The notes below the pieces were generated by a model, which ran no database searches, was not told the DNA's origin, and saw nothing but the letters and a program-made list of their open reading frames with translations. DNA of 64,000 nt, from contig JAPPBX010000082.1 in the NCBI GenBank assembly GCA_026702755.1, forward strand, positions 62,001-126,000, in the 5' to 3' direction. A program made the translations under genes and the position numbers. This stretch comes from Candidatus Poribacteria bacterium (GTDB taxonomy: Bacteria > Poribacteria > WGA-4E > WGA-3G). Shown here piece after piece: positions 5,527 through 63,571 of this stretch. The number at the start of each line of letters is the position of its first letter. Positions within the stretch are counted from its first letter, which is position 1.

Positions 5527-7644
5527 TTATTTTATGACACTCAACTTCCCAATTTCTTGGACAAGCATATCCGCTTGCACTGCAGAAATACGATAGATAT
5601 AAACACCTGATGCGACAGGCGCGCCGCTGCGGGTTGCAAGCGACCATTCAAACTTTCCTTGTGCGCCTGCATTCTCGTGCGTTTCACTATAAACAAGAGC
5701 ACCTGTCGGTGCGAAAATCTCAAGGTTGATGTTATCCGCAACCTGTGAAGCAGAAAGCCGGTAGGCGAACGTCATCACTGTATCACCCGCACGGAACGGA
5801 TTTGGATACACCCGCGTATCCTCAAAGGCGAAATCCCCCGCCTGAAGCTGCTCTATGCGCAATCTGTAAGAATCAACACTGCTGAATCCACCGTCGGATT
5901 CCACGACAAGGTAAAATATCCCTGTCCTATTGGGCTGGTAAATAATTCTCAACCCAGCGATGTCGGTAGCGTTTTCTCCAGTCGCATACACTTCACCCAT
6001 CTCTGAGTAAAGAGATAAACGATAACCTTTGCCCGGTGGAATGTCAGCCAATGTTACTAAAATAGTGACATCGCGAACTGCCTCCAGTTTGTAAACGTCG
6101 CGCGTATCATTCAGATCGAAAAGAAAGGATTCGTAAGTCTGCCCATATTCAATACGGAACGCAGTCGCAAACGTATCGTTTGGTTCATAAGTATCCCCAA
6201 ACGACACAAGGATTGGAATCGTAAGCCCTTCTGCTCCAATATTCGTAACTGAGATACCGGTAACAGTTCCATCGTTTGCATTACTGTTCGGCACGGTGCC
6301 GGGTGTAAAGGCAGTCTGTTCATCGTCAGCAGAGTAAGCGGCACCATCCGTTATCATTTGCACATCTATAAACTCAGCACCGTCTTTTTGAGAGATACCG
6401 AGGTGTTCAGGATCCGAGGGATCCTCAAGCCATATCTGTTGGGAAGCATCAAAGGTGCCAAGTGGATACGGGTTCGTTTCGTCAATATGCCAAATCAGAA
6501 TACCGGACTCAGGCAGATGGGTATCAAAGGTCGCCCCTGACGTTTTGTTCCGATTTTCTATAAGGAAAAATTCTGTCGATTCACCACGAACGGGAGTTGC
6601 CGACGAGTGAATATCAATCTTGAAAAGTTTATTTGTTCCGGGGGCAAGTTCAAAGCTGGGGACATCAATTTGTTGGTTTTGTGTAATCTGAACGGGTTGA
6701 ATCCAACCGAGACGACCGTTTTGAGGTCTCGCATCGAAATCCCATTTGAGGTATCCCATAATATGACTCGGTTCTAAGCCATTTCCGACTCCGAATGCCT
6801 CAGGTCCCTGATAGGGTCCGAACTGACTCATCAGCCCCCATTTATGGTCCCGTGCGTCTGTAAAATCGAATCCATAGACATCAGGCGCGCCGAAATCATG
6901 AAAAAACTCATGGAAATAGATTCCCAAGTGTGGGTGCTCAAAATCAGGTTCTTCAGCCACAATAGCAGCCGTATTGACGCGAACGCCATCATGAACAGCA
7001 TTAACGGAAGGTATTAGAAGAGACGCAATGTCATCAATAACGCCCGTGGAAGCCTGGTCGTTGCCTGAATGAATAACGAAAACATGGTCTACAACACCGT
7101 CTGCGTCTCGATCATATTTTGAAAAATCGACACTTGCATCTACTGCTTCACACGCTTCGCGAACTAACTCCCGGTAACGTTCAAGGATTCTACTACCTTC
7201 GCCGTAATAGGTCATCGGCTTTTTGGCACGGATCCACGCGTTACCAGCCGGAATAACGCCGCCCATTGGACCGGGTTGGACATCCATCTGCCCGTAAGAA
7301 TTTTCACGATAATAGGTTTTGAGAGAAACGCCTTCTGTCGCAAAGAGGTATCTATCAAATTCTGCGCCCTTTCTACGTCCCGGCATGTCAACAAAATCTA
7401 TTTTCAAAGCGAGGACATATTCTATGCCGTCGGACTGCAAAACCCCTTGCTCTTTGACAAGACAACACCCGTCTAACGCTTCGAGAAACTTTGCTCTACT
7501 TTGAGGTGCTTTGGGGACCAATTCACCGCTTGCTGAGTCTTGATTAAAAAATAGATAGGGATTTGGGGGTGCCGTGATACCTAATGAAGAAAAAAGAAGA
7601 ATAAGGATAGAGACGCAGCAGGTAGCTAAAAAGTGCTTAATCAA
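5527..7644 (-). CDS. Secreted M6-family metalloprotease with PPC and FlgD/sorting-like C-terminal domains
   Basis: This is an immune-inhibitor-A-type zinc protease, predicted to be secreted. A hydrophobic signal peptide (about residues 5-24) is followed by the catalytic domain with HEFFHDFGAPD (about 245-255), an HExxHxxGxxD metal site. A bacterial pre-peptidase C-terminal domain follows (DTYEPNDTF ... SVDSYRLRIEQ). The last 90 residues (YPNPFRAG ... GVYIYRI) resemble FlgD-like or type-A sorting domains used for surface delivery. The TTG at 7644 is preferred: a GGAGG sits five bases upstream and the signal peptide then begins MIKHF. The longer ATG frame at 7689 lies deep inside the upstream gene. 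It overlaps that gene's stop by 8 bp, so the two are probably co-translated. Confidence 0.85.
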   Translation of the reverse strand: MIKHFLATCCVSILILLFSSLGITAPPNPYLFFNQDSASGELVPKAPQSRAKFLEALDGCCLVKEQGVLQSDGIEYVLALKIDFVDMPGRRKGAEFDRYLFATEGVSLKTYYRENSYGQMDVQPGPMGGVIPAGNAWIRAKKPMTYYGEGSRILERYRELVREACEAVDASVDFSKYDRDADGVVDHVFVIHSGNDQASTGVIDDIASLLIPSVNAVHDGVRVNTAAIVAEEPDFEHPHLGIYFHEFFHDFGAPDVYGFDFTDARDHKWGLMSQFGPYQGPEAFGVGNGLEPSHIMGYLKWDFDARPQNGRLGWIQPVQITQNQQIDVPSFELAPGTNKLFKIDIHSSATPVRGESTEFFLIENRNKTSGATFDTHLPESGILIWHIDETNPYPLGTFDASQQIWLEDPSDPEHLGISQKDGAEFIDVQMITDGAAYSADDEQTAFTPGTVPNSNANDGTVTGISVTNIGAEGLTIPILVSFGDTYEPNDTFATAFRIEYGQTYESFLFDLNDTRDVYKLEAVRDVTILVTLADIPPGKGYRLSLYSEMGEVYATGENATDIAGLRIIYQPNRTGIFYLVVESDGGFSSVDSYRLRIEQLQAGDFAFEDTRVYPNPFRAGDTVMTFAYRLSASQVADNINLEIFAPTGALVYSETHENAGAQGKFEWSLATRSGAPVASGVYIYRISAVQADMLVQEIGKLSVIK

Positions 7645-8935
7645 ACTCGCCTCCGCACTTCCGGCACAGGATGTAGAATTGAATATCATCGGATTGGGCG
7701 TGTTGTATCATGAGATCGACTGCCTGTTGCGGCAGATCCGCTTCACATTTGGGACATTTGTAGATCGAACCTTCTGTTTCCGGGAATCGGGTAATATCCC
7801 CCCAAATATCCTGAAGCCAGTATTTGAATTCCCAAGGTATTTCGGTGTTGACAGCGGTCGCGATCTGAACAGCATGGCGGATTAGTTTTTGGCATTTGCG
7901 AATAGAAACAGGTTCATAGAGGTTCGGGGAATACTTAAGTGGAAGCTGTTTTCCCTCTGTCTCAGTTTGCGGGTTGAAATCTCGTGCGCGGGTCAGTAAG
8001 ATTTGGTCTAAGAGTGCCCCTTCTTCCCTTCCTTTCGACCAAAGACGATAGTAGCCTGTCCGTTTAATATGAAAAAAAGCAGGGGGGTCGTTCGGTTTGT
8101 TACCGGTTGTGTCGTCTGATGCCGTATCCCACAGCCAACGTCCCCACTTGGAGGTATCATTAGGTTCAACCCAAATTTTCATGGCACCTGGTCCCCCTGC
8201 TCTATCCCACGGTTTTGCGAGTGCCTCATCCATACCGATCCAATAAGAGTCTTTGCTATATTCAAAGAAGGCACGTGCCCAGAGGTACCACTTGCCGGTT
8301 TTAGGCATATAAATTTCGTGTATTGCTCTTGTCCCTTCCTTGCTGTCAATAGCTTTTCCGCGAGAGGCTTCGCCATGGTCAACTACTCTCACACCCCTAT
8401 CAAGATGGACAGCAGTATCTGCCTCAATAACAAGCGTATCCTTGGGTAGACGAGCGAGTTCTTTATCTCCGTCTGGCTCGCCCGGTTCTGTGGATTCCAT
8501 GAGATTATAGTTTTTCGCAATCCTTTGGGAAACCTTCTCGAACTGTTTTTCAGAAAGATTTGCATCAAAAAAACAATCTCGGATGCCCTTCTTCCAGAGA
8601 TCCAGCAGTAGGAACATCGCTTTCAGGTTACCATCTGGCCGTCTCCGAGTACCAACCACGATTAACATACCGGTGTCGTTAGAACGGCTGATTAAACACC
8701 GATGTAATGGAAAATCAGGGGCTTTGTGGGTTCTACTTGAGACAATAAGGGGTGAGTAATATTGGCACCTGTCGTCACACCCGGGGATCTTAGCGCGTTT
8801 GGCTCTACAGCATTCCGGGCAGATTAGCGTGCCATTAAGTGCTGGACAGACGCGTTTGCCTTTGTCAGAACGACACGTTCGACAACGCTGGCTTCTGCGC
8901 CGTTTTGCTGATGTTTGCCGTGTCTGACGTCGCAT
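7637..8935 (-). CDS. Zinc-ribbon / carbohydrate-binding-like / zinc-ribbon protein
   Basis: The 432-residue product has an unusual layout. A basic N terminus carries several cysteine pairs (CRTC, CPECC, a zinc-ribbon pattern, about residues 18-60). A middle domain (about 175-330) has the signature of a jelly-roll carbohydrate-binding module: a YLWARAF strand, DSYWIGMD, and a terminal REEGALLDQILLT. The C terminus holds two further cysteine pairs (CPKC ... CRKC). I see no signal peptide, so it is probably cytoplasmic despite the sugar-binding-like fold. The ATG at 8935 is preceded by AGGGG; a longer frame starts at 8974. It precedes and overlaps the M6 protease gene. Function is unknown. Confidence 0.7.
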   Translation of the reverse strand: MRRQTRQTSAKRRRSQRCRTCRSDKGKRVCPALNGTLICPECCRAKRAKIPGCDDRCQYYSPLIVSSRTHKAPDFPLHRCLISRSNDTGMLIVVGTRRRPDGNLKAMFLLLDLWKKGIRDCFFDANLSEKQFEKVSQRIAKNYNLMESTEPGEPDGDKELARLPKDTLVIEADTAVHLDRGVRVVDHGEASRGKAIDSKEGTRAIHEIYMPKTGKWYLWARAFFEYSKDSYWIGMDEALAKPWDRAGGPGAMKIWVEPNDTSKWGRWLWDTASDDTTGNKPNDPPAFFHIKRTGYYRLWSKGREEGALLDQILLTRARDFNPQTETEGKQLPLKYSPNLYEPVSIRKCQKLIRHAVQIATAVNTEIPWEFKYWLQDIWGDITRFPETEGSIYKCPKCEADLPQQAVDLMIQHAQSDDIQFYILCRKCGGEFD

Positions 8936-17566: not shown

Positions 17567-18679
17567 CTAAAAAGTTTGCCCGATTGAAAAGGCGTACACA
17601 CCTTTCCCTTGCACAATATGGAGGCGTTCTTCTGCGCCGACAGTGGGTATGAGTTGCGGTGTATACGCTGCGTTGAGTGTTATACTTCCGAGTCTAACAC
17701 CGAGTCCGAAGCATGGACCTTCCGCTTTCCAGAGTCGTTCTTCGGTTTCAAATGAACCGTCTTGTAAGAGAGACACTGATGTGTAACGCTTTTGTGTGTC
17801 CCGAAGGTAGCCAACTCTAATACCAATCCAGTGTTGGTACCACACTTCGGCACCTACATTTGTCCGGATACCGTCATGGAAGGGTGGATGTACATCTAAG
17901 CCGATGCGCAAAGCCGCGTCCGATATTTCGCGCTGATAGGCAATCCCCGTTACAATTGTGCGCTCCATCATATTTGGAATGGAAGCGTCAGAAAAGGAGA
18001 GTCCGTTACTCAAATTCCGAGCGACGATCCCTACCTGAACTGCCTCCCCAATCTGTTGGATAATACCAACATTATAGGCGTATCCGTGTCCAAGGTCCTC
18101 GTTCCCGTCAGTGCCGATTACTTTAGAACGCAGCCATTTCGTATCAACCCCAACAATGGTGCCGCCGAATATATTTAACCCGTAACTCAAACCGATAGCA
18201 AGATTATTTTCAGGAAAACTGTTGAGTGCCTTACCTTGATAGTCCACTCGGCGGAATGCCCCATCCTGTGCAAACGAGAACCCTAATCCAAGCGTCCCGA
18301 ATTTGCTCATCGGAAACGTCCAGTTTAAAGTTTCAATCCCGTACGCGTGCTGTTCATATCGACTATAATCCTCATAACTCGCATTGAGGTTCGGTTTCGA
18401 GAGCAAGGCAATGGTTCGTGGAAAACGGGTCGCGTGGATAACAAATCGGTTTCCTTCTGTTGTACCGATGCCAGCAGGATTACTCCCAAGGGCATTCGCC
18501 CCGCGCGTTAATCCAACGAAACTTCCGCCCATCCCCTGATGTTCAGCACCGAGCAACTGCTTGAGAAAACCGTCTGCTGATGCTCTTGCGTCCACCATTG
18601 AGGCAATGCCACTTGAAACAAAAAAGTGGAAGATTAAGTAAAGTAGAAGAGTTGCAACGCAACTTTGGATATATTTCAT
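17567..18679 (-). CDS. PorV/PorQ-like outer-membrane beta-barrel protein
   Basis: The 370-residue product starts with a signal peptide (about residues 1-26) followed by a motif shared by PorV/PorQ/UPF0164 barrels (FLKQLLGAEHQGMGGSFVGLTRGANALGSNPAG). The rest alternates amphipathic strands and ends in a terminal phenylalanine (IGQTF), typical of BAM-assembled outer-membrane proteins. In Bacteroidota PorV shuttles type IX secretion substrates; here the family is clear but that function is only possible, although the M6 protease has a FlgD/sorting-like C terminus. GAGGT precedes the ATG. It is first in a three-gene unit. Confidence 0.8.
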   Translation of the reverse strand: MKYIQSCVATLLLYLIFHFFVSSGIASMVDARASADGFLKQLLGAEHQGMGGSFVGLTRGANALGSNPAGIGTTEGNRFVIHATRFPRTIALLSKPNLNASYEDYSRYEQHAYGIETLNWTFPMSKFGTLGLGFSFAQDGAFRRVDYQGKALNSFPENNLAIGLSYGLNIFGGTIVGVDTKWLRSKVIGTDGNEDLGHGYAYNVGIIQQIGEAVQVGIVARNLSNGLSFSDASIPNMMERTIVTGIAYQREISDAALRIGLDVHPPFHDGIRTNVGAEVWYQHWIGIRVGYLRDTQKRYTSVSLLQDGSFETEERLWKAEGPCFGLGVRLGSITLNAAYTPQLIPTVGAEERLHIVQGKGVYAFSIGQTF

Positions 18680-22090: not shown

Positions 22091-22288
22091 ATTAGAGTGA
22101 AGAAAGCAAGAAATAGATACAACAAAATTTTTAAGTTTGCGTTGGAATGTTTACAATACACTCCCACGCGATAAAAAAGATATAAGGTTAACGCAATTGA
22201 ACCCTGATATAAAGAGGGATAGGGCTGTGCGATGAAACTCAGTCCACAAAAATCTGATTTTACAGGTTATCCTGGAAAGGTGGAATCT

Positions 22289-22999
22289 ATGAACCTTAAC
22301 AAACAGATACTTGCGATAATCATCTTTCTGTCAGCGACGATGCCTCATGCATTAGGGCATGTCACAGGCGAAAGACTTCAAAATTTTCAATACAATGCCG
22401 ACCTTGCACCGGTTGCCCCTATCGTAGACGGTTATCTTGACGATCCAGTCTGGGAGAGGGTAACCCCCGGGAAATTGGAACGAAACTTAATTACCGGAGA
22501 ACACTGGAACCCATCGCCAGATTTCACTGGATCTTTCGCGGCAACGTGGCGCAACGGCTTCCTCTACATAGCCATCAAACTCGTAGATGACCAGCTTGAA
22601 ACGCGCCAAAGGAAACTGCTTCGTGAAGATCATCTTATCCTTTACGTAGATCCACATCACTCAGGACGAAAGGATGACCTCTACCGCTACGCAATCCCAA
22701 TTGGGAAAGAGATGGGCACCCTAAAAGCCCCATTGATGCGCGTCGCATGGGGAAATGATGGACAAACATGCGAACTCAGTTTCCGGCTCGATAATCTCGC
22801 AAGAAAAGGCAATAGTATTGGATTCAGCATTACTTATAACGATGTTGATAACGGAAACCTTCAACATAAAATCACTTGGGCACCGGAAGGTTATACCGAG
22901 GAGAACGATTACCTTCCCGATCTCGTTTTCACCGCGAAGATCGAACCAAATAGACAACAACAATTAATCCAATGGGGACGCATCAAAAGTCTCTATTAA
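22289..22999 (+). CDS. Secreted CBM9/DOMON-like carbohydrate-binding protein with WGxIK tail
   Basis: The 236-residue product has a signal peptide (about residues 1-23, ending ALGHV) and one family-9 carbohydrate-binding-like domain. Typical motifs are APIVDGYLDDPVWERV, ATWRNGFLYIAIKLVDD and HLILYVDPHH. The domain normally binds sugars at the outer face of secreted enzymes; here it stands alone. The last residues, QLIQWGRIKSLY, match a C-terminal tail found on four other secreted proteins in the window. The ATG at 22289 follows AGGTGG; a longer frame to 22232 lacks a ribosome site. It is transcribed away from ftsH. Confidence 0.78.
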   Translation: MNLNKQILAIIIFLSATMPHALGHVTGERLQNFQYNADLAPVAPIVDGYLDDPVWERVTPGKLERNLITGEHWNPSPDFTGSFAATWRNGFLYIAIKLVDDQLETRQRKLLREDHLILYVDPHHSGRKDDLYRYAIPIGKEMGTLKAPLMRVAWGNDGQTCELSFRLDNLARKGNSIGFSITYNDVDNGNLQHKITWAPEGYTEENDYLPDLVFTAKIEPNRQQQLIQWGRIKSLY

Positions 23000-29992: not shown

Positions 29993-30811
29993 ATGAAAAC
30001 TGCGCTTATGTTTAAGTTATTGATGTTAGGGCTAATTTCAATTGGACCGGTGCTGGTAGTCCACGCCCAAGTCACGGAGGATGACCTTATCATCTACTAC
30101 AGTTTCAACAAAGACACGATCAAGGGGGACGATGTCACTGATGTGTCGGGCAACAAAAATGATGGTCTCATCAAAGGCAATCAGATCGAACCAGTGAAGG
30201 GAAAGGTCGGGGACGGTTTAGAGTTTCCCGGTGTCGCGACAGATTACATTTCAGTTCGGGAACACCAATACGTTGACCCGATTGAGCAAATTAGCCTCGT
30301 TGCATGGGTTAAAGCGGATCGAAGGGGCATGATCGCCTCTTGGGATCGGAGTGAGTTCTTCCGTTTTGCTGTAGGTGATGATGTCGGCGGAAACAACGGG
30401 ACAACTTTTGTTGCCTTTGACACCTGTTGTCCATGTTGTCATGATTGGTTTGGCAAAACAGATGTCGCCGATGACAAATGGCATCACCTTGTCGCAACAT
30501 TTGATGGGAAAGAAAAACGGATATACGTTGACGGCAAGTTAGATCAAAAGGAAGGTGCGCCCGCCAAAGTCATCGGTGCCGGGGCAGCACGGTATGGGTT
30601 TATTGGGATTGGTTCGGAAGCAGGTGGTTTTGATGCCGGTGTGGGACCGACATGGGCATATAGCGGAATTTTGGATGAGTTTATGCTGTTTCACCGCGCC
30701 CTCTCCGAGAAAGAGGTTAAACACCTCGCCAACGGACCTGAAAACCCGTTTGCCGTCGATCCGAAAGGCAAATTAAGTACGACTTGGGCGGACATTAAAG
30801 ACGTTGAATAG
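29993..30811 (+). CDS. Secreted LamG-domain protein with WGxIK-type tail
   Basis: The 272-residue product has a signal peptide (about residues 1-23, ending VVHAQ) and a concanavalin-like LamG jelly roll. Family motifs include YYSFNKDTIKGDDVTDVSG, GKVGDGLEFPG, QISLVAWVKAD and DDKWHHLVATFDGKEKRIYVDG. A cysteine-rich insert, TCCPCCHDW, interrupts one strand. The protein ends KLSTTWADIKDVE, matching a C-terminal tail seen on four other secreted proteins here. LamG domains bind glycans or proteins. AAGGAG is seven bases before the ATG. A terminator follows. Confidence 0.8.
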   Translation: MKTALMFKLLMLGLISIGPVLVVHAQVTEDDLIIYYSFNKDTIKGDDVTDVSGNKNDGLIKGNQIEPVKGKVGDGLEFPGVATDYISVREHQYVDPIEQISLVAWVKADRRGMIASWDRSEFFRFAVGDDVGGNNGTTFVAFDTCCPCCHDWFGKTDVADDKWHHLVATFDGKEKRIYVDGKLDQKEGAPAKVIGAGAARYGFIGIGSEAGGFDAGVGPTWAYSGILDEFMLFHRALSEKEVKHLANGPENPFAVDPKGKLSTTWADIKDVE

Positions 30812-40715: not shown

Positions 40716-40860
40716 ATTTTTTAACAGCCTTTGGGAGAGTTGTGTCATTTTAACAGGTCACGGTTTTATTGTCAAACGCCAGAAGTAATCAGTCAGAACT
40801 ATTTAACTCTTCGGTAGGAGGGAATTCCGATTCCCGACATATTCTTCTGGAATGATCAAT

Positions 40861-44249: not shown

Positions 44250-47200
44250 CTAAATTTTATCAAGCGGGAAACGGAGTACACCACGACCGAGCGTTCCGAC
44301 ATAAAGCGTGTTATTATCAACAGTAAAGGAGATGATCGGGCTTGGAACTTCCGGCGTAACTTGTTCCCATGTGCTCGAATTCTCCTTCAATGCATACACC
44401 TGTCGTTCCGTTGCGCCATAGACGGTTGCGCCGTCCACCGCAAATTTCTCTATGACAACCGGCGTGCCTTCCGCATCGGTTACCTTATGCCAACGCGTCC
44501 CATCGCTTGAATATGCGACACCTTTATCTGTTGCTACGTAAACAGTTGACCCAGCGAAGACGACTGTGTTGTAAGCGGCAACAGAAAATGGGAGATCTGC
44601 GGTGACATCATTCCAGGTATCCCCTTCATCAAACGACTGCATGAGGTGTCCATCCTGTTTGCCAACATAGAGGGTTTTACCGGACACCGCGAGTTTGACA
44701 CCGAGAGAGTGAATAAGATCAGTCGCCTCAGCGTGCTCAGCAGAATAGAGGTTAGAAAGAGAGGGGGGTTCGGCTTCATCTTTTAACCCGGTGTCGAACC
44801 AGGCAGTCATACCGGGTTTCCATCTGAAAAGTCGCTGCAGGTATTCAACATAGTAAGTATCACTGCTAACGGCAAAGTCACCAAAAAACGACATCATACC
44901 AGCTGTGGGTTGTTCCTGAAGTGCCTTATTGAGTGCTTCATTTTTTAGCCGCTGAAGATTGACGTTATTCTTAAGTGCCTCATTCAATTGGTCAGGATTG
45001 ATCTCCTTGAGTGCCCCAATTAACTGGTTAGAATCAAGATCTTCAATCTCTTGCTTACTCTTATCTGTAACCGCTTCCAGCAGGGTCTTCATCAGTTCTT
45101 CGGTCATTGGTATCTCTACTGATGTCCGGACCGTATTACCTGGCCCGACTTTCCCAAAAGCAGGCATGTCAGGGATAAACTTTGGGATAGTGTCCTCGGT
45201 GGATAGCCGAGCTATGGGTGAAGGTGAATTCATATGATTACCCCTCTTTACATAGAGAATACCGTCAAATGCCTTAATAATAACACCGTGGTCAATACCA
45301 CCGGGGAGCGGTGTCCACGACTCACCACTGTCTACTGAGGTGACGAATCCAGTCATTGAATTTGCGTAGAGCTTACCCTTAATAGCGATCAATGTCGGAA
45401 CGGTAGTGTCCACGAATCCAGTATTAAACTGATGCCACGATTTACCGGCATCGGTTGTCCGCTGAACCCCAGGCGGGACACCTCTATAGAAGGTGTTCTT
45501 ATCTAACATCAGCACAGGTGGGGCGATATTGTAATCTGATCCCAGCTTTAAATCTAAGGAATTCCAGGTCTCTCCGGTGTTTATAGAGTAGAAAAGTTCT
45601 CTGTTCGCGTCTACCACCATCACCTTTTCTGCTGCTGCGACTATCTTGATTTTCGAGAACATCTCCAGATCGACTCCAAATCCAACAGGAAACCCACGCT
45701 TCCTCTTTTTCTTTGTCTCATTCTCTAACCTCTTCCATGGATCTATAGAATACCAAGAATCACCTGAATCTGTTGAACGGTAAAGCGACCACCATGCGTT
45801 ATTGTCCATTCCTGATTTGGATCGCATCTCTGCATCTCCAGCTGCAGCATAAAGCCGGTGCTCTGCAACTATCAAGGCATAGATAGTCGGTTTCTCCATG
45901 CTCACCCCTTCTGGACGAATGTACACTCTTTCCCATGTCCCAGCACCAAGGCGATAGAGTCCGTTATCGGTGCCAGCAAATACGGTGTTCTCAACGGCAG
46001 CGAGCGCGTGAATCCTCTTGGCATCCAATCCATCTTTCAGAGATATCCACGATGCGCCCCTATCTTGGGAATGATAAACTCCTTCAGTAAGCCCAAGATA
46101 AAAGCCTGCGTCGGTTATCACTAACCCTGCTGGCGCGCCTTTTGGATGGCTGCCGAGCGAGTTCCATGTGCTACCACTATCGGTAGAAGTTAATATTTCC
46201 GTATCGGTAGCGACATAAAGCGTATCGTTGTGCTCTACCATTTGCCCCCCGCTCGTTAGCCAATCTTGCACGCTGCGTGAGGTTTCCATTTCGGCACTAA
46301 CAAGTTTCCATGCGCGCTGATCGTCCGACAATTTATAAAGACTGGTCGGTGTTCCCGCATAAATGTCCCCACCCGTTGTCGTAAAGAGGGTATTGACCGC
46401 GGCTCCCTCCGGTCCTTTTGTCTGTATCCATTGCGGTTTAGGCGTTGAAACTTCTGTTTCGTCAACGAGTGCTGCAGCGAAGAGGGGCGCGTCGGGTTTC
46501 TGACCGGCACCGGGGTTTTTACCGGGGGTAGCCGAACGACCCGCCTGATTCCGAATTGCGGGTTTCGCTGGTGAATCTAATACAAACGCTGCTTCAATAA
46601 TCTCAACCGTCCGTTCCGATGTGGCGTTTAAACTGTATGGTCTCTGAAAGCGGGAGAGGTATTGTGTACCAACACCCATCAGTAGGAAAATCAGAACCGC
46701 TGAGGCGGCAGAAAGCAACCAAGGTCCCATCGGCTTATTTGCAGTAGGTGCGGTGGGGGCAATACGCGAGATTTCACGCATGATATTCTCTGTTAGGTTA
46801 GTGGGCAGTTGGAAGCTGCCAAGGTTTTGTCGAATCATATTTTCTTCCTTCTTTAGGCGGTTTCGTGCGCGGCTAAGCCGGCTTTTAACGGTATTTGGAG
46901 AGACACCGAGAAATTCGCTGATGGTTTTGATTGTCATTTCACCGAGGTAATGGAGCGTCATCACTGTCCTTTCACTCTCAGGCAGTTTTTGGAGCAGTTC
47001 CTTGACGACTTCACGACGCGTCTCATCGGCTTCGGCTTCCTGTTTCTGGGCTACATATCGAGAGTATGACGCTCGATTCACCTCATTCATATCAGTGACC
47101 TCCAAGGATTGTTCCGGTAAGGATTTCTTTTGGAACCAGTCAGAACACAAGCGCGCCGCGATGACATAAAGCCATCCTCCAAACAAATTGTGATTTTTTA

Positions 47201-47387
47201 ATGTTTCGAGTTTTTGGTATGCCCTGAGAAACGCGTCCTGCGTGATTTCCTGAGCGATGTGAAAATCACCGATTTTTCGCCACACGAGGGCATGCACACC
47301 CTTCTGATACTTGTTGACGAGAAGAGCGAACGCCTCTTGATCGCCTTGGAGTACCTGTTGAATGAGTTGTGCATCTTTCTGTTCCAT
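44250..47387 (-). CDS. Transmembrane ECF sigma factor fused to an Asp-box beta-propeller, paralogue 1
   Basis: The 1,045-residue protein starts with an ECF sigma factor: sigma2 (about 10-85; DFHIAQEITQDAFLRAYQKL) and sigma4 (about 125-178; ERTVMTLHYLGEMTIKTISEFLGVSPNTVKSRLSRAR). One transmembrane helix (about 223-243) follows, then a proline-rich linker and a propeller with eight Asp-boxes (such as STDSGSTWNSL, TTDAGKSWHQF, SFDEGDTWNDV). A charged helical insert (about 760-826) interrupts the propeller. No separate anti-sigma gene is adjacent. The expected topology is sigma in the cytoplasm and propeller outside, so signalling would need release or conformational change. AAAGGAG precedes the ATG, with an ECF-type promoter 39 bp upstream. 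Confidence 0.88.
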   Translation of the reverse strand: MEQKDAQLIQQVLQGDQEAFALLVNKYQKGVHALVWRKIGDFHIAQEITQDAFLRAYQKLETLKNHNLFGGWLYVIAARLCSDWFQKKSLPEQSLEVTDMNEVNRASYSRYVAQKQEAEADETRREVVKELLQKLPESERTVMTLHYLGEMTIKTISEFLGVSPNTVKSRLSRARNRLKKEENMIRQNLGSFQLPTNLTENIMREISRIAPTAPTANKPMGPWLLSAASAVLIFLLMGVGTQYLSRFQRPYSLNATSERTVEIIEAAFVLDSPAKPAIRNQAGRSATPGKNPGAGQKPDAPLFAAALVDETEVSTPKPQWIQTKGPEGAAVNTLFTTTGGDIYAGTPTSLYKLSDDQRAWKLVSAEMETSRSVQDWLTSGGQMVEHNDTLYVATDTEILTSTDSGSTWNSLGSHPKGAPAGLVITDAGFYLGLTEGVYHSQDRGASWISLKDGLDAKRIHALAAVENTVFAGTDNGLYRLGAGTWERVYIRPEGVSMEKPTIYALIVAEHRLYAAAGDAEMRSKSGMDNNAWWSLYRSTDSGDSWYSIDPWKRLENETKKKRKRGFPVGFGVDLEMFSKIKIVAAAEKVMVVDANRELFYSINTGETWNSLDLKLGSDYNIAPPVLMLDKNTFYRGVPPGVQRTTDAGKSWHQFNTGFVDTTVPTLIAIKGKLYANSMTGFVTSVDSGESWTPLPGGIDHGVIIKAFDGILYVKRGNHMNSPSPIARLSTEDTIPKFIPDMPAFGKVGPGNTVRTSVEIPMTEELMKTLLEAVTDKSKQEIEDLDSNQLIGALKEINPDQLNEALKNNVNLQRLKNEALNKALQEQPTAGMMSFFGDFAVSSDTYYVEYLQRLFRWKPGMTAWFDTGLKDEAEPPSLSNLYSAEHAEATDLIHSLGVKLAVSGKTLYVGKQDGHLMQSFDEGDTWNDVTADLPFSVAAYNTVVFAGSTVYVATDKGVAYSSDGTRWHKVTDAEGTPVVIEKFAVDGATVYGATERQVYALKENSSTWEQVTPEVPSPIISFTVDNNTLYVGTLGRGVLRFPLDKI

Positions 47388-48491: not shown

Positions 48492-51400
48492 CTACTCGTC
48501 AAGCGTGAAACGTAGCACACCACTGCTGGAAGTTCCAACATAAAGCGTGTTGCCATCAACATCAAACGACAAGACAGTATCAGGGATTTCAGGTGTAACT
48601 CGTTTCCACATGTCAGAATTTTCTTTCAACTGATACACGTATTGTCCGGATGTCCCATATACCTTCGTGCCATCTACCACAATTTTTTCAATAACAAGTG
48701 GGCTGCCTTCAATGTCAACTGCCTCGTGCCATTGGGTTCCATCGCTTGAATAAGCGACCCCTTTATCGGTTGCTACATAAACAGTTGATCCCGCAAAGGC
48801 AATTGCCTTGAACTTCTCCACAGGAAACGGAAGGTCTGCGGTGGCATCGTTCCAAGTCTCCCCCTCATCAAATGATTGAGAGAGATGTCCATCTCTTTTT
48901 CCAACGTAAACGGTTTTACTTGCAACCGCGAGTTTGAAACCCATAGAATTAAAAACATCACTAAAAAGAGAAGTACCCGCCGAATAGTCAAAAGGGGTGG
49001 ACATTAAAGATGAAATAAAATTTTCGCCTTTATCTACTAACCCGGTGTCATACCAGGCATCTGTACCAGATTTCCATCTGAAGAGTCTCTGCTTGTATTC
49101 AACATAATACGTTTCGTCGCTGACAGAAAAATTTCCGAATATTGATGTCATAGCGTTTCCAATTGACTCTTGGACCATCTGATGCGCTGCTTTACTTGCC
49201 TCCTCAATATCCTTAGTATCGAGAATCTCACCGCTCTCAAGGTCTTGGTTAGCTATATCCTTGAGTACATCGCGTGCTGCCTTCTCGTTTTTTCGGTTTA
49301 ACCGATCCGTTAGTTCATTATTCAGCGGATCAACTTTTTCAAAAATCTTAGGGATCCCAGGAATAGGAATAAATTTGTCACCCTCTGTAGATAAACGCAG
49401 AATCTGAGGTTTTATGACTGCCATCCCCTTCATATAGAGCGCATCGTCAAATCTCCGAAAAACCGATATACCTCCCATAGGCGGAGCATCAACGGTAAAT
49501 GGTGTCCAAGACTCACCACCGTCAGTCGAGGTGACAAGTCCGTCCATTTCAGAGGCGTAGAGTTTACCGTTAATAGAGAATAGATCCATAACGGTAGTCC
49601 CAGCGAGTCCTGTATTAAGTTGATGCCACGATTCGCCTGCGTCAGTTGTGCGATAGACTCCAGTTTGGCTGCCTCTGTAGAAGGTATCTGCGTCCAACAT
49701 CACAATTGGTGGCGATATATTGTTCATTCCAGCAGACCTATCCTTTAAATCTAAGGAGGTCCACGTCTCGCCAGCATTAACTGAATAGAAAAGTTCACGT
49801 GGATGCGCTAACATAACTTTAGCGCCAGACGTGATTATTTTGAAATTTGAATAGGTAAAATCAACAGGCGTTGAATTGGCACCCTTCGGGGGAAATAGAG
49901 TTGAAATTCCGCCCTTCGGCTTTCTCTCATTTTCTGTCCTTTTTCTTGGATTTATAGCATACCACGTATTACCCAAATCGGTTGAGCGATAAACTGACCA
50001 CCAGTTATCGCCTGTCATTATCGCTTTGCCTTGGGTGCCGATCTCATTTGTAAATTCCCAACCCGCGGCAACATAGAGACGGTGTTCAGAGGCTGCTAAG
50101 GCGTGGACGGTCAGTTTTTGCCCGCGTTTATCTGCAGGACCCACTGACAACTGTTCCCACGCCTCAGCATTGCGGCGATAGAGGCCGGTATCGGTGCCGA
50201 CAAATACAGTGTTTTCAACGGAGACAAGTCCGCGAATCTTCTCGGTTTCTAAGCCATCTTTCAATGATACCCACGCTGTCTGATTATCTTCGGAAAAGAA
50301 AATATCTTCAATAAACGCGATATAAAACCCCGCATCGGTGACCGCCAAGCCTCTGGGGGCTCCTTCTGAATGGGTACCCAGCGAATTCCACGTCTCACCT
50401 CTATCTGTGGAAGCTAATACTTCGGTATCGGTGGCAAGGTAGAGCATATCACCATGCTCCGTCATCTGTATCCCACCCGCTATCCAATCTTGGATACCGA
50501 GTGAACTGGCACTTCTTGCATTAACGAGTCTCCATGTGCGCGCATCGTCCGCGAGTTTATAGAGGCTGGTGGGTGTACCTGCGTAAATATCACCAGAAAT
50601 TGTGGTAAAAAGGCCGTTAACAAGACCACCTTCCGGTCCCTTTGTTTGTATCCACTGCGGTTTAGGTGTTGAAACTTCTGTTTCGTCAATTGCTGCGGCG
50701 AAGAGTCGAGCGTCGGGTTTTTGACCGGCACCGGGGTTTTTACCGGGGGTAGTCGAACGACCTGCCTGATTTCGCGCTGCAGGTTTCGCGGGTGAATCTA
50801 AGACAAAATTTGCCTCAATAATCTCAACTGTCCGTTCCGATGTCGCATTCAAATCGTAAGGTCTCTGGAAGCGGGAGAGGTATTGTGTACCAACACCCAT
50901 CAGTAACAAAACTAAAACAGCCGAAGCGGCAGAAAGTGCCCAAGGAATCACCGGTTTATTCGTAGCAGGTGCGGTCGGAGTCATACGTGAGATTTCTCGC
51001 ATGATGTTTTCTGCTAATTGTGAAGGTAATTGGAAACTACCAAGGTTTTGTCGAATCATGTCTTCCTCCTTCTTTAGACGATTTCGTGCGCGGTTGAGTC
51101 GGCTCTTGACGGTATTCGGCGAAACACCGAGGAACTCACTGATGGTCTTGATCGTCATTTCTCCAAGATAATGCAGTGTCATCACTGTGCGTTCGCTTTC
51201 TGGCAGTTTTTGGAGCAATTTCTTGACGACTTCACGACGTGCCTCATCCGCTTCCGCCGCCTGCTTGCCTGCTATGTATCGAGAATATGACACTTGATTC
51301 ACCTCGCTTGCATCAGTAATTTCCAAGGATTGCTCCGGCGGGGGATTCTTTCGGAGCCAGTCGAGACACAAGTTTGACGCGATGACATAAAGCCAGCCAC

Positions 51401-51608
51401 CAAACGACTCATAGCTTTTCAAGGTTCCGAGTTTCTGGTATGCCTTGAGAAACGCGTCCTGTGCAATCTCTTGTGCAATGTGAAAGTCCCCGACTTTCCG
51501 CCACGCCAGCGCGTGAACACCTTTCTGATATTTGTTGACCAACGGCGAAAACGCGTCCTGGTCCCCCTCTAATATCCGTTGAATGAGTTTGGCATCTTTC
51601 TGTTCCAT
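48492..51608 (-). CDS. Transmembrane ECF sigma factor fused to an Asp-box beta-propeller, paralogue 2
   Basis: The 1,038-residue protein has the same plan as paralogue 1: ECF sigma2 and sigma4 (DFHIAQEIAQDAFLKAYQKL; FLGVSPNTVKSRLNRAR), a transmembrane helix (about 223-243), a proline-rich linker with GKNPGAGQKPDA, and a propeller with eight Asp-box-like motifs (STDRGETWNSL, TTDAGESWHQL, SFDEGETWNDA among them; one is degenerate). The helical insert differs strongly in sequence (NRKNEKAARDVLKDIANQDL ...). GGAGG precedes the ATG and an ECF-type promoter lies 43 bp upstream. A small exported protein follows. The sigma half is much more conserved between paralogues than the helical insert. Confidence 0.88.
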   Translation of the reverse strand: MEQKDAKLIQRILEGDQDAFSPLVNKYQKGVHALAWRKVGDFHIAQEIAQDAFLKAYQKLGTLKSYESFGGWLYVIASNLCLDWLRKNPPPEQSLEITDASEVNQVSYSRYIAGKQAAEADEARREVVKKLLQKLPESERTVMTLHYLGEMTIKTISEFLGVSPNTVKSRLNRARNRLKKEEDMIRQNLGSFQLPSQLAENIMREISRMTPTAPATNKPVIPWALSAASAVLVLLLMGVGTQYLSRFQRPYDLNATSERTVEIIEANFVLDSPAKPAARNQAGRSTTPGKNPGAGQKPDARLFAAAIDETEVSTPKPQWIQTKGPEGGLVNGLFTTISGDIYAGTPTSLYKLADDARTWRLVNARSASSLGIQDWIAGGIQMTEHGDMLYLATDTEVLASTDRGETWNSLGTHSEGAPRGLAVTDAGFYIAFIEDIFFSEDNQTAWVSLKDGLETEKIRGLVSVENTVFVGTDTGLYRRNAEAWEQLSVGPADKRGQKLTVHALAASEHRLYVAAGWEFTNEIGTQGKAIMTGDNWWSVYRSTDLGNTWYAINPRKRTENERKPKGGISTLFPPKGANSTPVDFTYSNFKIITSGAKVMLAHPRELFYSVNAGETWTSLDLKDRSAGMNNISPPIVMLDADTFYRGSQTGVYRTTDAGESWHQLNTGLAGTTVMDLFSINGKLYASEMDGLVTSTDGGESWTPFTVDAPPMGGISVFRRFDDALYMKGMAVIKPQILRLSTEGDKFIPIPGIPKIFEKVDPLNNELTDRLNRKNEKAARDVLKDIANQDLESGEILDTKDIEEASKAAHQMVQESIGNAMTSIFGNFSVSDETYYVEYKQRLFRWKSGTDAWYDTGLVDKGENFISSLMSTPFDYSAGTSLFSDVFNSMGFKLAVASKTVYVGKRDGHLSQSFDEGETWNDATADLPFPVEKFKAIAFAGSTVYVATDKGVAYSSDGTQWHEAVDIEGSPLVIEKIVVDGTKVYGTSGQYVYQLKENSDMWKRVTPEIPDTVLSFDVDGNTLYVGTSSSGVLRFTLDE

Positions 51609-51861: not shown

Positions 51862-52605
51862 TTAGAACTGTTTCAACTCTCCCCATGTTGTCGCGAGTTT
51901 TCCTTGAGGCGTTACGACGAACCCACCGCTGTTCGGAATGCTATCGCCGGTGACGGTGATATTATCAAAGCGCGCCGTATAATTCGCAAGACCGAAACCC
52001 ACACCACCCGTCCGAAAGTCAGGAAAGTCCTTAAAAGCCGCAACTTCTCTGAAAATCTGGAGTTTCGTAGGTTCCATAACCTGCTCCCGATTAATCCAAA
52101 AGGTGAAACTATCGCTTTGGACCCTTAATTTTAAATGTGACCATTTGTTCAACTTTAAGAGTGGATGTAGAGCATCGTGGAGAGGTGCGAATGACACGCC
52201 GTGTAAATTGCCTACTACACAACCTATTCGTGGTTTGTGAACCGGAGGCTCATCACCGATTATAACCACTGGGTCCTCAACACTGCAGTAAACTACCCAT
52301 GTCCCCTTAACCCGTGCAGCAATTGAGATACTGGAAATACCGTGTTTCTTAAGCGGCTTGACATCAAACTCAACGGTGTAGTCTTCCCATGTGTCATCTC
52401 CGGTCGTAAGTAAACGTTCAAACGTTTCACGGCTTACGGCGTGCAGTTCATTGTCAACAATTTCCCAAGAACCAGGAGCTTTATTCAACTGTACGAGTTC
52501 CTTCCATCCTTCCAGATCACCATCACCAAAGGTTTCTACAAACGTCCCTGCCCAGACAGAACAGGTAAAGAGAAAAAGGATTGCTACAATAGACACAAAT
52601 TTCAT
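51862..52605 (-). CDS. Secreted LamG/DUF1080-like protein with TTWGELK tail
   Basis: The 247-residue product has a signal peptide (about residues 1-20, ending CSVWAG) and a concanavalin-like jelly roll resembling DUF1080/3-keto-disaccharide hydrolase domains. Segments include TFGDGDLEGWKE, GSWEIVDNELHA, WEDYTVEFDVKP, KWSHLKLRVQSDSFTFWINREQV and GVGFGLANYTARFDNITVTG. It ends VTPQGKLATTWGELKQF, the shared C-terminal tail. The ATG at 52605 is eight bases after AAAGGA. It is probably co-transcribed with the Nudix gene 18 bp upstream. No catalytic residues are assigned. Confidence 0.75.
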   Translation of the reverse strand: MKFVSIVAILFLFTCSVWAGTFVETFGDGDLEGWKELVQLNKAPGSWEIVDNELHAVSRETFERLLTTGDDTWEDYTVEFDVKPLKKHGISSISIAARVKGTWVVYCSVEDPVVIIGDEPPVHKPRIGCVVGNLHGVSFAPLHDALHPLLKLNKWSHLKLRVQSDSFTFWINREQVMEPTKLQIFREVAAFKDFPDFRTGGVGFGLANYTARFDNITVTGDSIPNSGGFVVTPQGKLATTWGELKQF

Positions 52606-52623
52606 AATCATTTTCCTTTCGAT

Positions 52624-58121: not shown

Positions 58122-61100
58122 CTAATTCAGCGTGAAACGTAGCACACCGCGATCCGTAGTTCCAACATAGAGTGTGTTACCATCAATAGCAAGCGAGCTA
58201 ATCTCGCTCGGAACTTCCGGTGTGACCTGTTCCCATCTGCTTGAATTCTCTTTCAATTGATATATCTGTTGCTGAGTTGCGCCGTAGACCGTTGTGCCAT
58301 CCACTGCCATTTTTTCTATCACAAGCGGTGTGCCTTCCGCATCGGTTGCCATGTGCCAGTGAGTCCCATCGCTTGAATACGTCACACCTTTATCGGTTGC
58401 CGCGTAAAGCGTTGGTCCGGCGAAGACGATAACCTTGAAGTGGGTAACAGAAAATGGGAGGTCTGTCGTGACATCGTTCCACGTGTCGCCTTCATCAAAC
58501 GATTGAAGGAGGTGTCCATCCCGTTTGCCAACGTAAACATTTTTACCTGAAACTGCGATTTTGAAATCAAGGGAACCCTGATCTTGAATGTCAGCGATAG
58601 AATGAATAGACTCACCTGCATCCGCTAAGCCAGTATTGAACCATTCAGTCATACCGGCCTTCCACCTGAGGAGTTGCTGGTCATATTCCATATAGTAAGT
58701 ACTACCGCTGACAGCGAAACTCCCCAAGTATGCCCGAAAGAGTTTAACGAGACCTTCCTCTACAGTCTCATTAGCAACTGTGCTGAGCATATCCATATCG
58801 AAATCTTCAGGTTTTAATCTCTTACCTTCTTCAATGTTTTCCTGAAGTTCATCTTGTCCGGGTTCCCAAAGGGCGTTTTTGAATGTTTCAAAGATCAGTT
58901 CTTCAAGGTCTATCGCCCCTAAAATTGGCATTCCGGGGACAGGCACTAACCCATTATCCTCAGCAGATACGCGGTAAAGTTGAGGCGATCCCCCGTTGAC
59001 ACCTTTGACATAGGGCACATCGTTAAATTTCATCATACTCGTGAGAATTTCAGGACCACCTAAAACAGGGGTCCACGATTCACCATCATCAAACGAGCCA
59101 ACAAGTTTTCCCCATGTTTTTGCGTAAAGCATATTATTGGCATAGACCAACTTGTCTACGCCGGCCCTCACCAATCCTGTGTTAAACGGATGCCATGTTT
59201 TGCCTCCATCGGTCGTGCGTTGAATCCCCAATGGACTACTACTTTTGTAAAATGTGTTCGCATCCGATATGACAGCGGTGGAATCACCTCCTGTAGCTGC
59301 CGCTAAGACACGGGTGGCAGGACTTCCTATAGCTGCGTCACCTAAACCTAAAGATATCCATGTTTCCCCTGCATCACTTGAGTAATAACTCTCAACGCCA
59401 TCTACGACTAAAAGTCTTTCTTGTGCTGCCACCATTTTGACGCTGGCAGTCTTTTCCATTTCTGAGTTGTCATCCACTGGTCGAGTGCCAGCACCAGTGG
59501 CAAAAGTAAATCCAGCGTTTTCCTCGGAATCGGAAGCTGTTTTTTTGGGGAAATCTATCGCTTGCCACGAATCTCCGAGGTCTGTTGAACGGTAAAGCGA
59601 CAGATCGGTATTAGATTCCGACATTAACACGGAGATCGAAAGCTTCTTATTTTCAATCTCCTCTCCAACGGCAACATAGAGTCGGTGCTCAGCACTTGCC
59701 AATGCAAGGATATTCTCGACTTCACCTACGGGTAATTGCTCCCAGCCTTCCGAACTGTGGCGATAAAGCCCATTATCCGTCCCGACAAAGACAGTGTTTT
59801 CTATAGCGGTGATTGCCCGAATTTTCCTATCGGTTAGGTTTTCGTCGGTAAGAGATGTCCACGATTTACCGGCATCTACAGAGCGGAATACACCATCAAC
59901 AAGTCCCAAGTACATTGTAATGTTGGCTTGCGCTCCAAGGGTCTCATCCGTTATAATAGTGCCAATCAATTGCCCTTCTGGACGTGTTCCCAATGAATTC
60001 CATGTGCTACCTCTATCTGCGGAAGCAAGGACTTCGGTATCGGAAACGACATAAAGGGTATCCTCATGTTCCATCATTTGCCACGATCCATTAATAGACA
60101 TGTTCGTATTAGCAGATATCCACGCGCTTCTATCGTCTGTTAGTCTATAGAGATCCGCGCCTGCTTTGGCATAAACGTCGCCGTTAGATGCCATGAAGAG
60201 GTCGTTGACGACTCCTCCTTCGGGACCCTTAGTTTGGGTCCACTGCGGCTTCGGCGTTGAGACTTCTCTCATATCGACTGGCAGGGTGGCAAAAAGCGAT
60301 TCGTCGGGTTTCTGACCCGCGCCGGGACTCTTACCAGGGATAGCTGAGCTTCCTGCCTGACTCCGAACTGCGGGCTTTGCTGGAGAGTCCACAACAAAAA
60401 CCGCCTCAATAAGCTCAACCGTTGGTTCAGAGGTGGCACTCAGATTGTAGGGTTTTTGAAAACGGGAGAGGTACTGCGTGCCAACACCCATCATTAAGAA
60501 AATCAAGACAGCGGAGGCAGCAGAGATTGCTAACGGCGCGACCGGTTTACTCACAGCAGGTGGAACGGGTGCTATACGTGAGACTTCCTGCATAATGTTA
60601 TCCGCTAAGCTATCAGGGAGTTGGAAGCTGCCGAGATTCTGCTGAATTACGTCGTCCTCTTTCCGCAAGCGGTTACGTGCGCGGCTGAGGCGGCTCTTGA
60701 CGGTATTCTGGGAGACACCCAGAAACTCACTGATGGCTTTGATTGTCATTTCGCCGAGGTAGTGGAGCGTCATCACCGTCCGTTCACTTTCCGGTAATTT
60801 TTTGAGAAGCTCCTTGACAACCTCGCGGCGCGTTTCGTCGGCTTCGGCTTCCTGTTTTTCTGCTACATATTGAGAATACGACACTTTGTCCACCTCGTTT
60901 GAATCGGCAGTATCTAAGGATTCCATGGGTATGCGGTTTTTTCGGAGCCAATCAAGGCACTCGCGGGCGACGATAACGTAAAGCCATCCGCTAAACGCGT
61001 TAGGGTCCTTCAAGGTACGTAGTTGTCGGTACGCCTTGAGAAACGCGTCTTGCGTAAGTTCTTGTGCGATGTGAAAATCACCGATTTTCCGCCACGCCAA

Positions 61101-62512: not shown

Positions 62513-63571
62513 TTACTGCGTAAGTCCTAAGTTCTTTGAAGCCTTGATGGCTCCCCACGTCACAGCCCTCTTATCTAACGGTTGCACTGGCAGTGAATCA
62601 CCACCAACCCAACGTGGCGAAATAGGCAGACTATCCGGCAAAATAACTAAACGCCGAACTTGCTGCGACGCAAGCGAATAGATGTAGAGACCATTATTAC
62701 CAAAACCTATATCCGCAGAAAAGACAAGATAGTCGCCATTCGGAGACCAATCTACTTGAAAGAACTGCCGCAAGCCGCGATTGGCTACTTCCAGCAGGTT
62801 TATCCCATTAGCATTCACAACAAATATACCTTCATGAAGGTGAGTGACCACTGGTTGGTGATTCCTCCCATCAACATCCGCAACAAATACACCTTCATGA
62901 ACCGGTGTGTAGGCAATCTTTCTACCGTCCGGGGAGAAACTATAGAACGGGTAACGGCTTACGAAACCCGCACGTTCAGGGAATAGCGAGTGTTTCTTAG
63001 GTTTCTCTCGTCCACTGACATTCGACGCCCAGATCTCCTGAGGCTTGTCCATTGAAGCGAGATTGTAGAACACCGATTGCGCATCTGGTGCCCAGACAAA
63101 ACCTATTGGATTCTTACCAATGGGGTGTGGTAACTTTCGTTTCCGTCGTCCATCCGGCGAAATTAGAAAGATTTCTGTGTCCACATCGCGTCCGCCTCTT
63201 ATCTTTTGCTGACTGCCAGCATACACAATCCAACGTCCATCCGGAGACCAAGAAATATCCACGTAGGAATGGACTTGTAATATGATGGAACGAATTTTCT
63301 TACCCGTGCGAAGGTCTCGGATATGAAGAACATTACGGCGGTCAGGGTCGCTGTCTACCGCTGCCAAAAAGCGACCATCCGGCGAAGGTGTCGAAATACC
63401 CTCTTCCGCAATGCGCGTAGGTGTAGGGACTGTATCATTGGGACGTATCATGTAGGTGGTACTACGATAGGTGTAAACAATCACACCTTCTGCCCAGCAG
63501 AGCAGATTTGGGCAAATCCCCAATAGAAGAATTATTACCGAAAACAGAAAAGTCAAGCGATGCGTTTTCAT
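62513..63571 (-). CDS. Secreted TolB-like WD40/PD40 propeller protein with WGxIK tail
   Basis: The 352-residue product has a signal peptide (about residues 1-26) and a TolB-type propeller with recurring blade motifs: STPSPDGRFLAAV, DISWSPDGRWIVYAG, FVWAPDAQSVFYN, YSFSPDGRKIAYT and VDWSPNGDYLVFSA. One blade is partly duplicated (HEGVFVADVDG and HEGIFVVNANG). It ends VQPLDKRAVTWGAIKASKNLGLTQ, a longer version of the tail found on four other secreted proteins. GAGAGGT precedes the ATG. It is monocistronic with its own terminator. Confidence 0.8.
   Translation of the reverse strand: MKTHRLTFLFSVIILLLGICPNLLCWAEGVIVYTYRSTTYMIRPNDTVPTPTRIAEEGISTPSPDGRFLAAVDSDPDRRNVLHIRDLRTGKKIRSIILQVHSYVDISWSPDGRWIVYAGSQQKIRGGRDVDTEIFLISPDGRRKRKLPHPIGKNPIGFVWAPDAQSVFYNLASMDKPQEIWASNVSGREKPKKHSLFPERAGFVSRYPFYSFSPDGRKIAYTPVHEGVFVADVDGRNHQPVVTHLHEGIFVVNANGINLLEVANRGLRQFFQVDWSPNGDYLVFSADIGFGNNGLYIYSLASQQVRRLVILPDSLPISPRWVGGDSLPVQPLDKRAVTWGAIKASKNLGLTQ

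Follow-up and report, generated by a model that had tools for sequence, protein, structure and literature searches.

A short C-terminal tail, likely an address label, on Sec-exported proteins of Candidatus Poribacteria

Five exported proteins encoded in a 64,000-nucleotide stretch of a Candidatus Poribacteria genome (hereafter the window; positions 62001-126000 of contig C82, in an assembly of 5.84 Mb and 126 contigs) end in variants of one 15-residue motif, [VI]xPx[GD]KL[AT]TTW[GA]x[IL]K, placed 1-9 residues ahead of the stop codon and with the consensus VEPxGKLATTWGxIK. The likely reading (probability about 0.68) is that this tail serves as a short, linear address label at the C terminus, recognised once Sec export has taken place, the recognition step itself being inferred. 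We favour this reading because the motif is confined to C termini, its carriers are Sec-exported proteins without a second anchor, it crosses folds, selection acts on it at the protein level, and a natural swap is available in which an anchored copy has lost it. An earlier note, made from sequence alone, had reported five like-ended tails on unrelated secreted proteins and proposed a sorting, anchoring or processing signal. All five tails were found where that note had placed them, and such a signal is supported as the best reading; which of the three applies is unresolved, and the protein that reads the tail is unidentified. The coordinates of one gene, given as 51862-52605, were mended: it lies on the minus strand, very probably extends over 51862-52611, and encodes a protein of 249 aa that starts MIMKFVSIVAILFLFTCSVWA. 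The five carriers, with two of the tail-coding segments, are as follows.

22232..22999, plus strand: CBM9-like exported protein with the tail IEPNRQQQLIQWGRIKSLY, signal peptide beginning at Met 22289 (translation; Pfam CBM9_1, E 4e-12; profile match, 16.6 bits)
22940..22996, plus strand: tail-coding segment of the CBM9 protein (five-tail profile match, contig C82:84940-84996)
29960..30811, plus strand: LamG exported protein with the tail VDPKGKLSTTWADIKDVE, signal peptide beginning at Met 29993 (translation; Pfam Laminin_G_3, E 3e-15; profile match; AlphaFold2 model)
30755..30808, plus strand: tail-coding segment of the LamG protein (five-tail profile match, contig C82:92755-92808)
43443..44219, minus strand: LamG-like exported protein with the tail VEPTAKLTTLWGRLKRE (translation; Pfam, weak Laminin_G_3 only, E 0.022; profile match)
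51862..52611, minus strand: 3-keto-disaccharide-hydrolase-like jelly-roll exported protein with the tail VTPQGKLATTWGELKQF (translation; Pfam 3keto-disac_hyd, E 2e-12; profile match; AlphaFold2 model)
62513..63571, minus strand: exported PD40/TolB-like propeller with the tail VQPLDKRAVTWGAIK followed by 9 residues (translation; Pfam PD40, E 5e-13; profile match)

By inspection, all five proteins carry a Sec signal peptide at the N terminus. The K-L-A-T-T part of the tail is divergent in the CBM9 protein. To call the carriers unrelated was a slight overstatement, as three of the five are concanavalin/LamG-like sandwiches, the other two being a CBM9 protein and a PD40 propeller. When the window's genes were scanned for the core W[GAS]x[ILVM][KR], just these five proteins had it near the C terminus; a looser internal match, WSHLK in the jelly-roll protein, was the single such case.

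The motif was characterized in 64 tails from 1.18 Mb of contigs, a sample of 962 crudely called genes and 347,574 aa. Residue counts were V(53) x P(40)/A(15) x G(33)/D(13) K(53) L(48) in the first half and A(32)/T(23) T(53) T(44) W(64) G(44)/A(17) x L(39)/I(20) K(64) in the second; the invariance of W and of the last K is partly built in, since both residues were used in collecting the tails. Some of the sampled contigs were picked as tail-rich, so that 64 per 1.18 Mb overestimates the density of tails, a choice without bearing on the position and signal-peptide results. All 64 profile matches of at least 4 bits lay within 12 residues of the C terminus and none was internal, while matches at 2-4 bits were internal and noise-like. 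A strict regular expression for the full motif gave 51 C-terminal and no internal matches in the 347,574 residues. Core matches found by six-frame translation of 80 listed loci from public genomes were without exception 1-10 residues before a stop codon (176/176), and among relatives, including the deepest lineages, 99/100 were C-terminal; some proteins of deep lineages (loci L307 and L309) finish exactly on the last K. The C-terminal restriction is thereby shown. It had been proposed that the idea of a signal would fall if the motif occurred internally, or in cytoplasmic proteins, as often as at the ends of exported ones, and this was not the case.

The minimal DNA pattern, W[GA]x[IL]K with a nearby TAA, gave 144 matches versus 36 for a reversed control. 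Diverse codons encode the conserved positions of the tail; it is therefore the protein, not the DNA, that is under selection and conserved. A chance or compositional artefact was ruled out by the position of the matches, the reversed-pattern control and the codon diversity, and repeated DNA or a mobile element at gene ends was ruled out by codon diversity at each conserved position.

The link to Sec export is likewise shown. With a permissive heuristic, a Sec signal peptide was assigned to 63/64 carriers versus 296/898 other genes (Fisher p about 1e-27), and with a strict version to 57/64 versus 132/898 (p about 5e-36). A transmembrane (TM) helix beyond the signal peptide was found in none of the 64 carriers, versus 141/898 other genes. 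Tail proteins have a median length of 265 aa, and the tail is present on 45 of the 71 soluble exported proteins of 180-300 aa in the 1.18-Mb sample (about 63%). Several folds carry it: a scan of 58 carriers assigned 31 to LamG, 6 to PD40/DPPIV-like propellers, 4 to 3keto-disac_hyd, 3 to CBM9 and 1 to Kelch, and the others had no common family. The predominance of LamG (31/58) raises the possibility that common descent alone explains the tail, as a relic kept by paralogues of one LamG family. This explanation is all but excluded. CBM9, PD40, Kelch, 3keto-disac_hyd and unassigned proteins also end in the tail; in a carrier alignment the mean column identity over the full length was 13%, while the tail was better conserved, with W and the last K invariant; and one propeller, 72% identical to a carrier, differs at its C terminus only by having no tail.

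That propeller is one of two adjacent genes on contig C71 that encode the same fold and are 72% identical over 296 aa. The soluble, Sec-exported copy has the tail, ending ...ALPVQPNVELLTTMWGKLKQK. In the other copy the propeller follows an ECF sigma factor, a TM helix lies near residue 219, and the protein ends ...ALPVQSKEQ, stopping where the tail would start. Loss of the tail in the anchored copy is shown for this pair. From this single clear example it may be inferred that what requires the tail is the soluble exported form and not the fold. In another sigma fusion (g00886, Kelch) the tail is degenerate, ...DPTGKLVQTWKTTKNSNH. Tail-less homologues of tail proteins also include predicted lipoproteins (g00394 and g00660), and proteins that bear a type IX CTD, lack the tail and have a domain in common with a tail protein (g00634, g00892, g00627 and g00762). 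Since the tail-less homologues are anchored or CTD-bearing, it looks as if tail, CTD, lipid anchor and TM anchor replace one another.

Sigma fusions are also encoded in the window, where 44250-47387, 48492-51608 and 58122-61199 (all minus strand) are ECF sigma factors fused to BNR/sortilin-like propellers via a TM helix at about residue 218. The 1.18-Mb sample holds 19 sigma-type proteins of more than 400 aa, and in some of these one-protein sensor/sigma fusions the propeller is nearly identical to exported tail proteins. An association of sigma-fusion genes with tail genes was considered and rejected as not general: 6/19 lie by tail genes versus 1.8 expected in this genome, but such cases are rare in other genomes.

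Within the tail, L, W and L/I are spaced 4 and then 3 residues apart (i, i+4, i+7), as on one face of a helix, and conserved lysines flank them. In AlphaFold2 models of two folds, the folded body is followed by a linker that is disordered and of low confidence, and the chain finishes in a short helix (residues 263-271 in the LamG protein and 239-247 in the jelly roll), itself predicted with low confidence (pLDDT about 33-50). Tail genes are also clustered, 32/64 adjoining another tail gene versus 7.9 expected. It is possible that the tail is instead an anchoring or assembly ligand that docks small lectins and propellers on a receptor at the surface or in the periplasm, in the style of dockerin and cohesin. 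The anatomy of linker plus linear motif in the models, the clustering of tail genes, and the many carriers that are carbohydrate-binding or propeller modules speak for such docking. Against it, no receptor family was found, and internal copies or copies on multi-domain scaffolds would be expected, of which none was seen in 347,574 aa.

The sequence evidence covers the whole phylum. A profile search of this genome and of the Poribacteria, which the earlier note had suggested, gave at least 150 matches to the five-tail profile in the genome (150 being the number scored), and showed the tail in 85/85 genomes of the phylum from 22 genera (E <= 0.001). Copies per poribacterial genome range from 9 to more than 111, and the deepest branches have the same consensus. 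The pattern KL[AST]TTWGx[IL]K occurs at at least 80 loci in GTDB genomes, and 78 of the 80 listed are from Candidatus Poribacteria. Outside the phylum, true-looking tails were found in two MAGs, at loci L101 (4 matches) and L118 (1 match); these are JAPPIL010000222.1 and JAFDHL010000343.1, contigs in Pseudomonadota and Deltaproteobacteria MAGs. Poribacterial tails in both are best explained, in all likelihood, by mis-binning; for L101 this is likely because its MAG shares a sample series (RHO2) with the poribacterial bin L112. A search of viral contigs gave no matches. No type IX phylum other than Poribacteria was seen to have the tail, sister phyla not having been searched systematically, and with the same reservation it is probably hardly present outside the phylum.

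C-terminal sorting signals are already known, and the tail is likely an undescribed, unusually short variant; no description was found in the open-licence literature searched or the motif and family libraries examined. PEP-CTERM/exosortase resembles it in being a genome-wide C-terminal tag on many unrelated exported proteins. PEP-CTERM, however, needs a TM helix and a basic end, whereas the tail has no helix of this kind and exosortase (PF09721) was found in 0/24 genomes. Similarly, LPXTG/sortase signals have a short conserved motif near the C terminus with proline and threonines, but also a hydrophobic helix and a basic end, both absent from the tail, and the envelope of Poribacteria is of Gram-negative type. 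The claim that the tail is unlike PEP-CTERM and LPXTG signals therefore held, there being no TM helix after the motif and no exosortase.

Encapsulin cargo-loading and microcompartment encapsulation peptides share with the tail a short linker and an amphipathic terminal peptide. These peptides act on cytoplasmic proteins, and carriers with a Sec signal peptide (63/64) do not meet that criterion. An encapsulation-type peptide, or a periplasmic quality-control or turnover tag (degron), was considered as an explanation, since a short amphipathic C-terminal helix is predicted here as in many degrons and cargo-loading peptides. Either is very unlikely: more than 100 intact genes per genome encode the tail, as do about 63% of those for exported proteins of 180-300 aa in the sample, which speaks against a degron, and encapsulation is a cytoplasmic process, yet the carriers have Sec signal peptides.

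The type IX type-A CTD (TIGR04183) is alike in being C-terminal, in occurring on Sec-exported proteins of many folds in the same genomes, in its basic end, and in that some domains occur with either CTD or tail. It differs in being a folded beta-sandwich of 72 residues, whereas the tail, at about 15 residues, is either unfolded or forms a short helix. TIGR04183 matched none of 58 tail proteins (E up to 0.1; first 25 of the 26 families in the tally), and a local CTD profile gave no match to tail proteins. The shortest type IX CTDs reported, from Prevotella intermedia, are 40-51 aa and form a second class beside long ones (PMC11969387); they have motifs B, D and E, form a three-stranded sheet and are modelled to bind PorV. 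The poribacterial tail, by eye, has no motif B or D, and with just about 15 conserved residues after the folded domain the tail proteins do not meet the P. intermedia short-CTD criterion. The claim that the tail differs from the type IX domain thus also held, but the same genomes encode type IX core components, so that a type IX reader is possible.

A single-cell study had found type IX sorting domains in Poribacteria and no secretion or structural genes (PMC3909097). Contrary to that 2014 report, a type IX-like system is very probably present; what is shown are core parts only, not the motor PorK/L/M/N (GldK-N). Three of its features are listed here.

28365-35135 of contig C124 in this genome (L280:365-7135): divergent SprA/Sov-type translocon, with equivalents in 40 genomes
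17567..18679 of the window, minus strand: PorV/PorQ-family outer-membrane barrel (NF033709, 75.5 bits, E 5.6e-21, under the 90-bit cut-off)
5527..7689 of the window, minus strand: M6 metalloprotease with a classical type IX type-A CTD (TIGR03296, E 1e-33; TIGR04183, 26.9 bits, over the cut-off), the CTD also matched by the local CTD profile

An SprA/Sov-like protein of about 2200 aa was found in 40/40 genomes. That of this genome (2256 aa) matched over five collinear stretches (148.5 bits, E 1.4e-43) and is likely a divergent homologue, so called because its score falls under the curated 200-bit cut-off; a search against PDB sequences gave no match. The PorV family has 13-25 paralogues per genome in 20/20 genomes (best E 1e-67), with about 19 in this genome. 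Peptidase_C25 (PorU-like) was found in 24/24 genomes with E down to 1e-96. At locus L300 a C25-CTD protein is encoded directly upstream of a PorV gene; in Porphyromonas gingivalis, porU adjoins porV (PMC5445135). A C25 peptidase gene followed by a PorV-family gene, in a porU-porV-like arrangement, was observed at L300:1803-9233 and, in this genome, at C94:13549-19036. Type IX CTDs are present in 83/83 genomes; in this genome they are borne by proteins of 536-1538 aa, none of which also has the tail. With SprA-like, PorV and C25 PorU-type proteins in the same genomes, the criterion for a type IX substrate is met in part. The earlier note had also suggested looking for a co-occurring protease or translocon. 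SprA-like, PorV and C25 proteins were found, yet in all poribacteria examined; since all of these have both tail and type IX, co-occurrence within the phylum says nothing.

In the mechanism we propose, a carrier would enter the periplasm via Sec by its N-terminal signal peptide and then fold, retaining a flexible linker and the 15-residue amphipathic tail. An envelope machine would recognise the tail and move the protein to its final place, which is most likely on the cell surface or outside the cell, so that the outer membrane would have to be crossed. Among candidate readers the likeliest is the poribacterial type IX system, though we would still place it slightly on the unlikely side; it is inferred, as is dependence of export on the tail, without a direct link. 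One or more of the 13-25 PorV-family barrels would bind the tail in place of a 70-residue CTD, so that small cargo would have a minimal type IX signal of its own, the second such signal in addition to the CTDs of large cargo. The barrel at 17567..18679 is a possible candidate for the type of tail reader, no direct link having been shown. Type IX is favoured because it is known as the system by which C-terminal signals of folded, Sec-exported proteins are read, because P. intermedia accepts shorter CTDs (PMC11969387), and because PorV is unusually expanded and domains are common to tail and CTD proteins. Against it stand the absence of any direct link between tail and machinery, a tail far shorter than CTDs of 40-51 aa, and the presence of type II as well.

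It is also possible that the tail is read by a machine other than type IX, either type II or a translocon specific to Poribacteria. A type II secretin (GspD-type, TIGR02517) was found in 24/24 genomes, over the cut-off in 22, and type II substrates are also folded Sec-exported proteins; the type II criterion, presence of a secretin, is met and is silent on whether the tail is used. In addition, a reader specific to the phylum is favoured by the restriction of the tail to one phylum, a restriction that type IX does not share. On the other hand, type II substrates are not known to share a short linear terminal tag, and no candidate reader was found for a non-type IX machine. In one family the genes for the type II secretin (about 1000 aa) are found as tandem pairs; at G040:C92:33688-39606 a pair is fused into one 2077-aa frame, and pairs occur in other genomes too.

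Neighbourhoods of tail genes were also compared. A link between tail genes and a PorV gene, conserved in five genomes, looked promising and was rejected: tail genes lie near one PorV gene in one family only, and because three deeper relatives (loci L300-L302) have no tail genes there, the linkage reflects shared ancestry. CRTAC1-like FG-GAP/ASPIC and TPR genes lie within two genes of tail genes in 10/19 cases versus about 3.3 expected, and are 2.4-fold denser near tails in other genomes; directly adjacent to tail genes on the same strand they are no more frequent than by chance. In this genome the enrichment was seen on contigs C1, C10, C17, C96 and C112. The window also encodes, at 33737-36202, 38346-40748 and 40954-43251 (all minus strand), three Omp85-barrel proteins with about 590-630 residues ahead of the barrel, their genes interleaved with those for DUF4159-type proteins ending GINAVVY[AS]LTH.

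As an address label, the tail would provide a sequence rule for extracytoplasmic delivery of more than 100 proteins per genome to a common destination in an uncultured phylum that dominates sponges. With SprA-, PorV- and PorU-like genes in all genomes examined, the puzzle left in 2014 (PMC3909097) is reopened. Should type IX not read the tail, an envelope machine that is so far unknown would be implied. Should it do so, the tail would show how little of a folded CTD suffices for recognition; no smaller type IX address would be known, and the surface proteins of the phylum would become predictable from their sequences.
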